In this document: positions 8,126 through 29,169 of the stretch, in pieces
Numbering within the stretch: the first letter of the stretch is position 1
Layout of the letters: the number at the start of each line of letters is the position of its first letter
Source: Actinomycetota bacterium
GTDB lineage: Bacteria; Actinomycetota; Acidimicrobiia; IMCC26256; VFJJ01
Direction: 5' to 3'
NCBI GenBank assembly: GCA_009886115.1
Contig: VFJJ01000204.1
Coordinates: 1 to 33,895 of the forward strand
Length of the DNA stretch: 33,895 bases
Notes under the pieces: model-generated
Database searches by the model: none
The model's input: only the letters and a program-made list of their open reading frames with translations
What the model was told of the DNA's origin: nothing
Program-made: the position numbers and the translations under genes

Positions 8126-8362
8126 ATGACAACGACGCAAGTGGCTGTGCGGCTCCCGAGCGAGCTCCTCGAGAACATCGATGTCCTCGTGGGGATGTCG
8201 TTCGAGTCACGCTCCGACGTCATCCGGCAGGCGATCGAGCAGTTCCTGTACCGCCATGCTTGTGAGCGCGACGCCCGAATCTACGAGTTGACGCCGTTCA
8301 GCGATGCCGAGCTGGCCCTGGGTGAAGATCTCGAGTCGTGGAAGCTCACACCCGCGTGGTGA
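8126..8362 (+). CDS. CopG/ribbon-helix-helix antitoxin
   Basis: 78 aa. The N-terminus TTTQVAVRLPSELLENID is a classic ribbon-helix-helix beta strand plus helix, followed by SRSDVIRQAIEQFLYRH, the second helix. This fold binds operator DNA as a dimer. The C-terminal ~35 residues (ELTPFSDAELALGEDLESW) are acidic and probably wrap and neutralise the toxin. The gene overlaps the MazF-like gene, so the two form a type II toxin-antitoxin module. Likely leaderless and autoregulated. Its toxin partner is basic for the region and lacks any other regulator nearby. Confidence 0.88.
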   Translation: MTTTQVAVRLPSELLENIDVLVGMSFESRSDVIRQAIEQFLYRHACERDARIYELTPFSDAELALGEDLESWKLTPAW

Positions 8363-8667
8363 GGGGTGAGGTCTGGTGGGCCACGGTGCCCGGTGGAGAG
8401 CGGCCGGTGCTCGTCCTCACCCGTGATCCCGTGGCCGACCGGATCGGCGCTGTGGTCGTCGCGGCGTGCACCCGAACGGTCAGGGGTGTGCACAGCGAGC
8501 TCGCGCTGGGGCCCGCCGACGGCATGCCCGAGGCCTGCGTCGCCAACTTCGACAACCTCCACACGGTGCGGCGCAGCGCGTTCCGAGAGCGGATCACCCA
8601 GCTCGGCGTGGAGCGCATGAGCGAGGCGTGTCGCGTCCTCGCCCACGCCCTGGCCTGCGTCGACTGA
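8356..8667 (+). CDS. mazF: MazF/PemK family mRNA interferase toxin
   Basis: About 103 aa. The family opening RGEVWWATVPGGERPVLVLTRD matches the MazF/PemK/Kid SH3-like barrel (split here: RGEVWW then GERPVLVL). The later ACTRTVRG and ANFDNLHTV segments fit the conserved Thr and NFDNL regions, and the helix after RRSAFRERI closes the fold. MazF toxins cut mRNA or tRNA at short sequences. Three GTG codons are possible starts (8338, 8356, 8359). The one at 8359 would give a GTGA overlap with the antitoxin stop and a protein starting MRGEVWW. The start at 8338 would add VEAHTR. I used 8356 as the middle choice with GGAAG upstream. Toxin function is inferred from family and pairing. Confidence 0.88.
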   Translation: MVRGEVWWATVPGGERPVLVLTRDPVADRIGAVVVAACTRTVRGVHSELALGPADGMPEACVANFDNLHTVRRSAFRERITQLGVERMSEACRVLAHALACVD

Positions 8668-8691: not shown

Positions 8692-9285
8692 TCAGACCGT
8701 GAGCGCGGCCACGATCTCGTCGAGGACGGCGGCGATGCGCTCGCTGCGCACCTCGACCGTCTCCTCGTAGTAATCGTTGGGGACCACCACGTAGCGCAGA
8801 TCGGGCAGGCCGAGCAGCCGAGCGTTCGCCGCCAACGCCGGCACGAACGGCGGGGTCACCAGCGTGACCGTCGGGATGCCCATGCGCTCCAGGTTCACGG
8901 CGTCGAGCACACTGCCCGACGTGCACGAACCTCATTTGGCGAGGCCGTTTACGACCCCCGAGCAGCTCCGCAGATGGGCGAGCAGCTCGTCGCCGGCGGG
9001 CCGTGACAGCACCGGCTTGCAGATCCGCGGCGAGTCGGCGAGGACGGCCGTCCCGTAGCGGCGCCGCAGCCCAGCCTCGATCTCGATCGTGTAGCCGTAG
9101 AAATCGGGTCCCTGCTGGCGGCTCTGCTCGTTCACCATGAAGCCGATCAGCCCGTCCATGGCGGGCATGCGCGGCGCCAGCCCGATGGAGGACTGCTCGC
9201 GCACCTGGCCTCGGGGATCGACGATCTCCATACGCCCCTTGGGCTCGACGTTCGCCACAACGTTTCGTTCCCCGGCGTCGCTCAT
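8692..9285 (-). CDS. UGSC-family selenoprotein 1 (in-frame TGA = selenocysteine)
   Basis: Read through one TGA at 8932-8934 the frame gives 197 residues with Sec118. The sequence around it is VVNGLAK-U-GSCTSGSV, the hallmark of the UGSC family, in which the first position is Sec or Cys. U118-x-x-C121 looks like a thiol/selenol redox motif. Before the TGA there is a 117-residue conserved-looking domain with MDGLIGFMV. After it comes LDAVNLERMGIPTVTLVT, continuing the same fold. Treated as a stop, the TGA would split the gene into two ORFs with no separate ribosome-binding site for the second. The ATG at 9285 overlaps the stop of the 368-aa partner (ATGA), so the pair is coupled. No membrane or signal segment. 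Function unknown, likely redox. The Sec reading depends on SelA/SelB/SelC/SelD elsewhere in the genome. Confidence 0.85.
8902..8920 (-). promoter_or_regulatory. candidate bacterial SECIS hairpin 1
   Basis: In the mRNA, 11 nt after the UGA, GTCGGGCA pairs with TGCTCGAC (8 bp, one G-U) around a GTG loop. The loop begins 20 nt after UGA and starts with G, matching the usual rule for bacterial SECIS elements (apical loop 16-37 nt downstream, G among its first two bases). An outer GGTTC/GAACC pairing (8931-8927 with 8896-8892) could close it further. Not folded by program. Confidence 0.55.
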
Positions 9286-10388
9286 GGTTCCTCGATCTCC
9301 CTCGTGACGGCGTAACCGCCGAGATGACCCCAACCTGGGCACACGACCGCCCACGGGATGCTGTCGGCGCCGCTGACCATGACGTGGATGGCCTCGGGCC
9401 GCTCGACGCAGGGGACGAGCGTGTCGTCGCTCGACTGGTCGACCCACGCGGGCCACCATTCGTACCACCACCGGGGATCGTTGTCGGGCCGGCGGGGCGA
9501 ACGCGGCCGGAGATCGCCGAGTCGCCGTCGGGCCAGCCGGAACAGCGTGTCCTGCACTGCGGTGCGGTCGAAACCGTGCCGTGCCAGGTGCCGCGCCTCC
9601 GACGGCGAGAACACCACGAGAGCCTCGCCCATGGTGTGGGCGTTGTTGTTGCCGAGCCCGGCGAGATGGTCGGCCACCTGGCCGAGGCGCTGCTCGGGAT
9701 CGTCGCCCACTCCCCAGAACGACACGCTCTGCGGGCTCTCACACGCGAACACCAAGACTGCGCTCCGGCCGGCACCGGCGCCCGCCATCGACGGCCAAGG
9801 CGTGTTGTCGGGCTCCTCGGCGATGCAGAACGCCAGCCGCCCGGGATGGCCGAAGACCTCTTTCACCGGATCGCCCGGCCGAGCACCACCCAGGTTCCAG
9901 AGCACGAGCTTGACCGCCCGACCGATGGCCACGTTGGCCCGGGCACCACCGCCGCTGAACACCGACTCTGTGGTGGCCATCCCAAGCCGGCCGACGGCCG
10001 GCCCCGACACGATCACGAGGGGCCAGCAGCCGTGGGTGGTGCAGGCCACGCCCCTGAGGTTGAAGCGCTCGTCGAGCATGGCCTCGATCGCCGCGACCAC
10101 GACCGGCATGTGCTCGGGCAGGCAGCCGGCCATGGCGGCGTTGGCCGCGACGGCCTCCACGGTGGCAATCCCGTTCCGAGGGGGAACGAGCCCGATCTCG
10201 GCGTGGGCTTCCCGGCCCGTCGCCGCGACCAGTGCATCGACGATGGCCCGGTCGGGCGCGAACGTGGGAAGCCCGTCGGTGAGGCCCAGTCGGTACGAGA
10301 GCTCGGTCCACGCCCCCGGCTCGATCGTCGACGGGAGACCGTCCATGGTTGCTCCCGGTCCCTCGGGCATGACGGTGCGAGTGTCCAT
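9282..10388 (-). CDS. UGSC-partner protein 1, function unknown
   Basis: 368 aa, soluble, no signal peptide. I cannot name the family, but it is clearly paralogous to the protein at 27563-28618: both have an N-terminal [T/G]DGLP motif, NGxxTVEAxAxNAxMAG (here about residues 82-98), a GGxARANxAIGRA-like stretch, FGxPGR, and a C-terminal RPxxxxVMVxG then WG. It sits directly upstream of UGSC selenoprotein 1 with a 4-base ATGA overlap. The GCGAGG ribosome-binding site is about 9 bases before the ATG at 10388. Only 17 bp separate it from the divergent SDR gene, so the promoters lie inside each other's coding sequence. The pairing with a UxxC protein suggests it is the catalytic or substrate-binding partner in a redox reaction. 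This is inference. Confidence 0.8.
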   Translation of the reverse strand: MDTRTVMPEGPGATMDGLPSTIEPGAWTELSYRLGLTDGLPTFAPDRAIVDALVAATGREAHAEIGLVPPRNGIATVEAVAANAAMAGCLPEHMPVVVAAIEAMLDERFNLRGVACTTHGCWPLVIVSGPAVGRLGMATTESVFSGGGARANVAIGRAVKLVLWNLGGARPGDPVKEVFGHPGRLAFCIAEEPDNTPWPSMAGAGAGRSAVLVFACESPQSVSFWGVGDDPEQRLGQVADHLAGLGNNNAHTMGEALVVFSPSEARHLARHGFDRTAVQDTLFRLARRRLGDLRPRSPRRPDNDPRWWYEWWPAWVDQSSDDTLVPCVERPEAIHVMVSGADSIPWAVVCPGWGHLGGYAVTREIEEP

Positions 10389-27562: not shown

Positions 27563-28618
27563 TCAGAACCCTCGAGTGACGGCTTGGGTGTTGCCCCAGC
27601 TGTGGATGGCGGCCGAGTGGAGGTTCCCGAGACCGCCGCACACCATCACCAGCACCGAGGCCGGGCGTTGGGCCAGGTGCACACGACCGTCGGTCGCGAC
27701 CCGGCCGGCGTCGGTGAGCGCCCGCTGATGGGCCGGCGGCCACCACTCGAGCGGGAGGCTGGCGTGTCGGTGGAGCAGCTCCTGCACATCGTCGATCGCG
27801 GGGACGTCGCGCCCGATGATCTCGGCCCACATCGGGTTGATGCAGACCAGGAACTCACTGTCGGGGCAGGCGACGAGGTAGCCGTTGGTGCCCATGGAAG
27901 CGACGGACTTCCCGATGATCTCCAGCAACTCGGTTCCGGTGGTGGCCACGGTGTCGCAGATGTTGGCCGTCCCCATGGCGCCGAACACGGTGACGGCGTC
28001 GCCGCGCACACCGCGTCGAACGGCGAGCGGTGCCCAGGGCGACCGGTCCTCCCATTCGCCGACCACGACGCCCGTCACCCGGCCGGGCTGGCCGAACACC
28101 GACTGCGATGTCGTCCCCACCACGTGCCCGGCGACGTTGCGCATCACGAGTCGCAGCGCTCGCCCGATCGCCGGCGCGGGGCCGGCCACGCCACCGAAGC
28201 AGCCGGCCCGGTACGGGACCCCCAGCCGGTCGCGGACCGGCCCGTTGACGAACACCGCTGGTACGACCGATCCCGTGGTGGCGTTGAGCCCGGCCAGGTC
28301 AAAGGTCGGCTCGACCATGGCTTCGAGCGCCGCGCACAGCAACGGCATGGCGTCGGAAGGCGCGCCGGCCATCACCGCATTGACGGCGAGGGCCTCGACG
28401 GTGCACACCCCGTTCGCCGGTGGGAGCACGGCCACGACGTCGTCGGACCGGCGTGTGGAGCCGGCCAGCATCGCCAGCACCCGCTCCTGCGTCGGGGGCA
28501 CCAGCGGCAGCCCGTCGCCCCAGCCCTGCTCGGCCGCGAACTCGGTGAACCCGACGACGTCGAGATCGACCTCGACCCGCTCGGCGCGGAGCACCGCGTC
28601 GGCCGCGGAGTCGGTCAC
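27563..28618 (-). CDS. UGSC-partner protein 2, function unknown
   Basis: 351 aa, soluble. Paralogue of the protein at 9282-10388. Shared features: WGDGLPLVPPT near residue 32, NGVCTVEALAVNAVMAG (about 69-85), a segment PAPAIGRALRLVMRN, FGQPGR, and a C-terminal RPASVLVMVCGG followed by WG. Local differences are large, so the copies are old. The GTG start overlaps the stop of UGSC selenoprotein 2 (GTGA), so this gene is second in its cassette, whereas partner 1 is first. No known domain could be named. Cysteines occur but no CxxC. An enzyme reduced by the adjacent UxxC protein is a working idea only. Confidence 0.8.
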   Translation of the reverse strand: MTDSAADAVLRAERVEVDLDVVGFTEFAAEQGWGDGLPLVPPTQERVLAMLAGSTRRSDDVVAVLPPANGVCTVEALAVNAVMAGAPSDAMPLLCAALEAMVEPTFDLAGLNATTGSVVPAVFVNGPVRDRLGVPYRAGCFGGVAGPAPAIGRALRLVMRNVAGHVVGTTSQSVFGQPGRVTGVVVGEWEDRSPWAPLAVRRGVRGDAVTVFGAMGTANICDTVATTGTELLEIIGKSVASMGTNGYLVACPDSEFLVCINPMWAEIIGRDVPAIDDVQELLHRHASLPLEWWPPAHQRALTDAGRVATDGRVHLAQRPASVLVMVCGGLGNLHSAAIHSWGNTQAVTRGF

Positions 28619-29169
28619 GGTGTCACTCCCAGGCTGCGCAAGAGCTCGGGCAGGAACCTCGCGGCGATCATGCGCACCTCGGTCTCGGGCTGGGTGTCGA
28701 GGGGATACGGCAAGATGACCAAGGGCAGCTGCGCTCGTCCGGCGCTGGCCGCCAGGGTCTCGCCCAGAGCCCGGAACTGCTCCGTGCAGACGGCGACCGC
28801 CGCCTTGTGCCCGTCGACCACGGCGAGAGCGTCGTGGATCGTCCAGGCCGTGCAGGAGCCTCAGTTGGCCAGGCCCACCACGGCCAGGTCGACGCCGGCC
28901 ACGAACTCGACGAGCTCACGCTCCATGCGCCGACCCTCGTCGCCGCTGCGCGACCCGGTCCGCCAGCGGACGATCTCGGCGCCCCGGGCCTCGAGCTCGG
29001 CCGACCAGACCTCGCCGATCCAGTCCCACGACCGCCACATGTGGTCGAGCCTGAGCCCGACCTTCAGGCCCGACAGGTCGACGCCGACGGTCGACGTTGG
29101 TGCCGCGGCGCCGGCGGGAGCGACCGATCGAGTAGCGGCTACCGGGCTGAGGATGAGACCTCTCGTCAT
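28615..29169 (-). CDS. UGSC-family selenoprotein 2 (in-frame TGA = selenocysteine)
   Basis: Reading through the TGA at 28861-28863 gives 184 residues with Sec103: VVGLAN-U-GSCTAWTIHDAL. This is the same place and motif as in the first copy, with U103 and Cys106 forming UxxC. The N-terminal half (VGVDLSGLKVGLRLDHMWRS) differs strongly from copy 1, so the two are old paralogues. The start is fixed by GAGGGAG upstream of the ATG at 29169. The partner gene follows by GTGA overlap. Split as ordinary ORFs it would yield a 102-residue and a 68-residue fragment (the second with no ribosome-binding site at its first ATG). No membrane or signal segment. Redox function is likely, exact role unknown. It is divergent to a luciferase-like oxidoreductase. 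Confidence 0.85.
28835..28845 (-). promoter_or_regulatory. candidate bacterial SECIS hairpin 2
   Basis: After the UGA, TGGA (16-19 nt downstream) pairs with TCCA around a CGA loop that starts 20 nt after UGA, with G in its second position. The loop is at the same distance as in copy 1. The stem is only 4 bp, and an outer CACGGC/GCCGTG pairing (28852-28847 with 28824-28819) may stabilise it. A competing fold (CCACG with CGTGG) exists, so this call is weaker than copy 1. Confidence 0.4.

Follow-up and report, generated by a model that had tools for sequence, protein, structure and literature searches.

UGSC selenoproteins and their near-obligate partner family: a proposed two-subunit reductase with a GrdB-like selenocysteine domain

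In GrdB and PrdB, remote relatives of one of the proteins investigated here, selenocysteine (Sec) attacks carbon as a nucleophile; Sec domains of the GrdB type carry out reductive chemistry, and GrdE is the pyruvoyl subunit that activates the substrate. The gene pair we investigated resembles these enzymes (PF07355) in that one of its products appears to have a homologous Sec-bearing C-terminal domain, with Sec aligned to Sec, in that both systems would consist of two subunits, and in that a thioredoxin system is encoded nearby in some lineages. However, the UGSC protein has only about half the length of GrdB, and its partner is unrelated to GrdE.

The UGSC proteins themselves are a named selenoprotein family that was reported in 2008 (PMC2398784) and is represented by the entries PF24696 in Pfam and NF041046 in NCBIfam. 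The motif of this family and its exchange of Sec and Cys are identical in the two UGSC proteins described below, whereas the family entries that we searched name no partner, which is a feature of the present loci. Figure S1A of the 2008 paper mentions a UGSC/Unknown_1 fusion in which UGSC is joined to another conserved domain, as it is in two of the fusions reported here (C193 and L146); as far as this figure goes, Unknown_1 may be the partner family. The first-pass annotation of this DNA had called the pair a candidate undescribed system, which holds for the partner family and for the system, but not for UGSC, given its names in the databases and the fusion shown in that figure. In the literature searched, mostly papers free of subscription, we found none that names the partner or reports the near-obligate linkage or the kinship with GrdB. 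The near-obligate partner family and the GrdB-type kinship of the UGSC Sec domain are thus what we consider new.

Two UGSC cassettes and their probable selenocysteine codons

The window, the whole stretch of 33,895 nt analysed here, contains two pairs of a UGSC gene and a partner gene, cassettes A and B (Table 1). In cassette A the partner lies 5' of the UGSC gene and the coordinates confirm the ATGA overlap described earlier; the overlap is real, but the phrase "fused by overlap" was loose, as there is no fusion at cassette A. Cassette B spans 27563-29169 and has the opposite order, UGSC first and partner second. The two partners are 34% identical along the length of partner B, in agreement with the earlier assignment of both to one unnamed family. 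Directly adjoining cassette A, and convergent with it, are two plus-strand genes (8127-8667): the first is ribbon-helix-helix-like, and the second encodes a toxin of the PemK/MazF type (PF02452).

Table 1. Features of cassettes A and B, given as positions in the window
Feature	Position	Strand	Details
Partner protein A	9282..10388	-	ATG start, 368 aa, unnamed family
UGSC selenoprotein A	8692..9285	-	ATG start, 197 aa, Sec at residue 118; PF24696 E=1.9e-30
In-frame TGA of UGSC A, codon 118	8932..8934	-	interpreted as Sec, in the UGSC motif
ATGA shared by the end of partner A and the beginning of UGSC A	9282..9285	-	
Candidate bacterial SECIS stem-loop, begins at TGA of UGSC A	8890..8934	-	MFE -23.4 kcal/mol, z=-2.9
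UGSC selenoprotein B, upstream gene of the cassette B pair	28615..29169	-	
In-frame TGA (Sec) of UGSC B	28861..28863	-	
Partner protein B	27563..28618	-	GTG start, 351 aa, family of partner A
GTGA overlap of UGSC B and partner B	28615..28618	-	

UGSC A belongs to the Pfam family, which it matches with 106.7 bits (gathering score 25) and whose [U/C]GSC motif it contains. Its score against NF041046, 71.2 bits, is below the cut-off of 125, which places it outside that equivalog as a divergent member. UGSC B was matched as UGSC with 92.7 bits in the search of the whole genome. The single internal TGA of UGSC A is found in the context AKUGSCTSGS, in which UGSC occupies residues 118-121. Of 79 homologous loci, 52 encode Cys here and 27 have TGA, in every case inside [U/C]GSC. 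The source genome encodes a tRNA-Sec with the anticodon TCA, SelB and SelD, and each of its eight UGSC genes contains one TGA. UGSC A thus has both attributes by which bacterial selenoproteins are recognized, a TGA where homologues have Cys and the Sec machinery in the genome, and because of the exchange of Cys and TGA at one position, together with this machinery, its TGA very probably encodes selenocysteine. The stem-loop that follows in cassette A, compared with dinucleotide shuffles in Table 1, is a probable SECIS; cassette B (z=+0.4 in the same test) and several other UGSC genes have no clear hairpin. As a group, UGSC genes fold more stably after the motif position than CGSC genes do (p=0.002), a modest signal, several of these UGSC genes being close kin. 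Two partner genes (in G010 and G020) had been flagged with an in-frame TGA, but when the regions matched by the HMM were read again they contained no TGA, which leaves no evidence of a second selenoprotein among the partners.

Linkage, fusion and co-divergence of the two genes

The source genome contains eight UGSC genes and eight partner genes, and all eight are adjacent, one to one. Across 61 genomes, this one and 60 relatives, partner and UGSC stand side by side on one strand in 93 cases, out of 97 genes of each family; the partner comes first in 51 of these pairs and UGSC in 42. Coordinates and re-reading place all four unpaired partners at contig ends, and one seemingly unpaired UGSC gene (G004) is accompanied by the start of a partner, 28 residues long, which the contig end cuts off. 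A search of genome contigs with the partner only retrieved 80 loci, which belong to Pseudomonadota, Actinomycetota, Myxococcota and Acidobacteriota, a sample biased to cassette-B-like partners by its query, an alignment of three members; UGSC lies alongside in 79 of them, and the 80th starts at a contig end. We also searched 295 further genomes of the phylum: both genes are present in 21, only the partner in one, only UGSC in none (leaving out two matches below threshold) and neither in 273; 30 of the 33 UGSC matches are paired, and these counts are lower bounds because few candidates were scored per genome. Plasmid records extend the pair to haloarchaea and to further bacteria. On several plasmids RefSeq lists the partner as "hypothetical protein" beside a gene named "UGSC family (seleno)protein"; the UGSC profile matches at 10 of the 12 plasmid loci, the other two (Vibrio and Sporomusa) being fusions with a divergent UGSC domain.

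In all, the pair was found at far more than a hundred loci. The first-pass annotation had proposed that the partner is linked to UGSC, and had named a partner family that usually occurs without UGSC genes as the observation that would speak against it; with 93 of 97 and 79 of 80 partners paired, the opposite is found, and the linkage is near-obligate. One genome (L147; G336, contig C272) has tandem repeats of the partner family and no detected UGSC gene, the only such case seen. On plasmids of Halorientalis and Halalkalicoccus (L108 and L109) two partners flank a single CGSC gene, an order that hints at a heteromeric partner.

Natural fusions also support the pair. On contig C193 of the source genome, UGSC, with its TGA, and partner are found in one frame of 571 codons; a Cys version of the fusion is present in another genome (L146, genome G045) and a CSTC version in Neorhizobium. 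In the fused proteins of Vibrio and Sporomusa the UxxC motif is gone, with MGTS in its place, so that Sec/Cys chemistry is impossible for some members; these two genes (L116, 5374-7059; L117, 5308-7032) lie near genes for aconitase X and DUF126. Across the eight paralogous pairs the distances between partners correlate with those between UGSC proteins (r=0.75, exact permutation P=0.0005). Judged by these congruent distances, the cassettes are inherited as units, although co-divergence alone is no proof of contact.

Relatives of the UGSC protein and of its partner

The C-terminal half of UGSC can be aligned, Sec on Sec, to the C-terminal domain that bears Sec in GrdB and in PrdB-like proteins. 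The profile of 74 UGSC sequences was compared by hhalign with GrdB/PrdB-like sequences taken from the same class, few of which are GrdB, and gave a probability of 94% (1.3e-7), or 87.5% (3.6e-6) with the motif masked. A reversed control stayed below 1%, and reversed and unrelated alignments together reached 11% or less. By profile comparison, this half of UGSC is homologous to the GrdB/PrdB Sec domain, the match being remote and the GrdB sequences few; no match of UGSC to PF07355, which covers full-length GrdB, exceeded the Pfam cut-off. The earlier proposal of a redox role for UGSC, based on its UxxC motif, is supported, but it had missed this kinship.

Genomes of the same class were also surveyed for GrdB/PrdB-like genes (L130-L134, in G072, G075, G166, G120 and G162, and L135-L143). 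They contain GrdB with the motif UGT[GS]TR[CS]G and an adjacent GrdE-like gene, as well as many short UPxC selenoproteins resembling PrdB; the source genome has one UPLC gene (on C178). The matches of PF07355 end just before Sec, and because they stop there the annotation is probably truncated.

In the AlphaFold model of UGSC (pLDDT 78) the beta-alpha units run parallel, and Sec sits where a helix begins. Its best Foldseek matches, all of them weak, are flavodoxin-like (lumazine synthase, azoreductase), with no thioredoxin among them. A thioredoxin-like fold was presumed in 2008 (PMC2398784), whereas the weak matches of our model point rather to a flavodoxin-like one.

Searches of Pfam and NCBIfam with 50 and with 8 partner members returned nothing at meaningful E-values, and the partner matched no PDB family either; by its sequence, the partner is a new family. 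Among 77 members D38, G39, P45, G88, G129, G156, R157 and E191 are invariant and N83 and W198 nearly so, whereas no cysteine is invariant. In a fold search with the partner model (pLDDT 81, pTM 0.85), class I fumarate hydratases (PDB 5l2r and relatives) took 18 of the 18 top places and matched along the whole model, but weakly (E between about 1e-3 and 1e-2, highest probability 0.87, TM-score 0.2-0.3). As the partner shares neither profile similarity nor conserved cluster cysteines with these enzymes, we rejected its assignment as a class I fumarase. We also rejected a pyruvoyl subunit of the GrdE kind, which hhalign gave a probability of 0.1-0.3% against the GrdE-like proteins beside GrdB in this class, and a relative of GrdB, with which there is no profile similarity. 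One partner (contig C179; L018, 2367-3830) has an N-terminal CPTC extension that is weakly thioredoxin-like (E 0.03) and has no Pfam match.

A proposed reductase and its alternatives

Thioredoxin genes accompany the pair in some lineages: the gene order is trxB-trxA-partner-UGSC in Arthrobacter and partner-UGSC-trxB in Roseovarius, and trxB lies near the pair in Variovorax and Neorhizobium and further off in Paracoccus. We found no trxB within 6 kb of the pair in the 80 cassette-B-like loci, and none in the window. Genes for SDR proteins, enoyl-CoA hydratase, luciferase-like monooxygenase and CoA transferase are common around the pairs, and transporter genes also occur. These neighbours point to a probable catabolic substrate, either a carboxylate or a compound linked to CoA, which may differ between paralogues; since the neighbouring pathway genes vary widely, they imply no single substrate, and no one pathway emerged from the survey. 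A phosphosulfolactate synthase gene precedes the Arthrobacter cassette (L112, 3698-5977), which may hint at a sulfonate as substrate in that lineage.

The near-obligate adjacency and the occasional fusion suggest that UGSC and partner probably form one enzyme. Were their adjacency due to operon coincidence or shared inheritance, with the two proteins acting separately, the few orphan genes of either kind would be accounted for; however, adjacency of about 95% or more across Actinomycetota, Pseudomonadota, Myxococcota, Acidobacteriota and Halobacteria, with either gene first and sometimes as a natural fusion, makes this very improbable. A dedicated pair would also be expected if UGSC were a thioredoxin-like thiol/selenol-disulfide oxidoreductase that keeps the cysteines of its client, the partner, reduced, and both the UxxC motif and the fold assumed in 2008 (PMC2398784) agree with this idea. 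We consider it improbable, as the partner offers no invariant Cys as a target, the UGSC model resembles flavodoxin-like proteins, if weakly, and not thioredoxin, and the profile homology is with GrdB/PrdB.

An alternative explanation is that the pair is a non-reductive enzyme, such as a lyase, hydratase, isomerase or racemase, in which Sec or Cys serves as nucleophile or base, with the partner providing the catalytic scaffold. The fumarate hydratase matches of the partner fold, low as their TM-scores are, point in this direction, as do a weak match of one UGSC member to Asp/Glu racemase, aconitase X near the Cys-less fused forms, and the very existence of members without Cys. Nevertheless, the partner has neither the profile nor the cluster cysteines of a class I fumarase, thioredoxin reductase neighbours argue for reducing turnover, and GrdB-type Sec domains are reductive, which leaves this explanation unlikely. 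We favour a reductase because of the trxB and trxA neighbours in some lineages and the kinship with GrdB. That UGSC and partner are the two subunits of a Sec/Cys reductase which thioredoxin recharges, the partner being a new subunit for substrate binding, seems moderately probable to us. Of the two-component redox enzyme in the first-pass annotation, the near-obligate pairing, the fusions and a redox role for UGSC are supported, whereas we infer the complex and its activity, the division of labour, the chemistry and the substrate class.

The kinship of UGSC with the GrdB/PrdB Sec domain suggests a mechanism for the proposed reductase. The two genes would encode two subunits of one enzyme, or a single chain in the fused forms. 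The UGSC subunit would provide a Rossmann-like domain of the GrdB/PrdB type with Sec118 (Cys in many relatives) at a helix start, and the partner, with its invariant acidic residues and Arg, its near-invariant Trp and no conserved thiol, would bind and activate a small substrate, probably one linked to a carboxylate or to CoA. Sec118 would then attack this substrate, with reductive cleavage of a C-X bond, and a selenenyl-sulfide between Sec118 and Cys121 would form and be reset by thioredoxin and thioredoxin reductase. The nucleophilic role of Sec is carried over here by analogy with GrdB and PrdB; the Schiff-base step cannot be transferred in the same way, since no relationship between partner and GrdE was detected.

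Tentatively, the pair may represent an uncharacterised class of selenium-dependent, thioredoxin-recharged reductase that pairs a Sec domain of the GrdB type with a new subunit for substrate binding, is present as eight paralogous pairs in one genome, and would cleave C-X bonds in the catabolism of carboxylates or CoA-linked compounds in largely aerobic bacteria and in haloarchaea. For annotation, nearly every UGSC gene now has a neighbour whose family can be named. One near-obligate partner and the kinship with GrdB/PrdB turn an "unknown redox protein" into a defined, if proposed, two-subunit enzyme that can be expressed and assayed, and the Cys (CGSC) forms of the pair make this workable without selenium.
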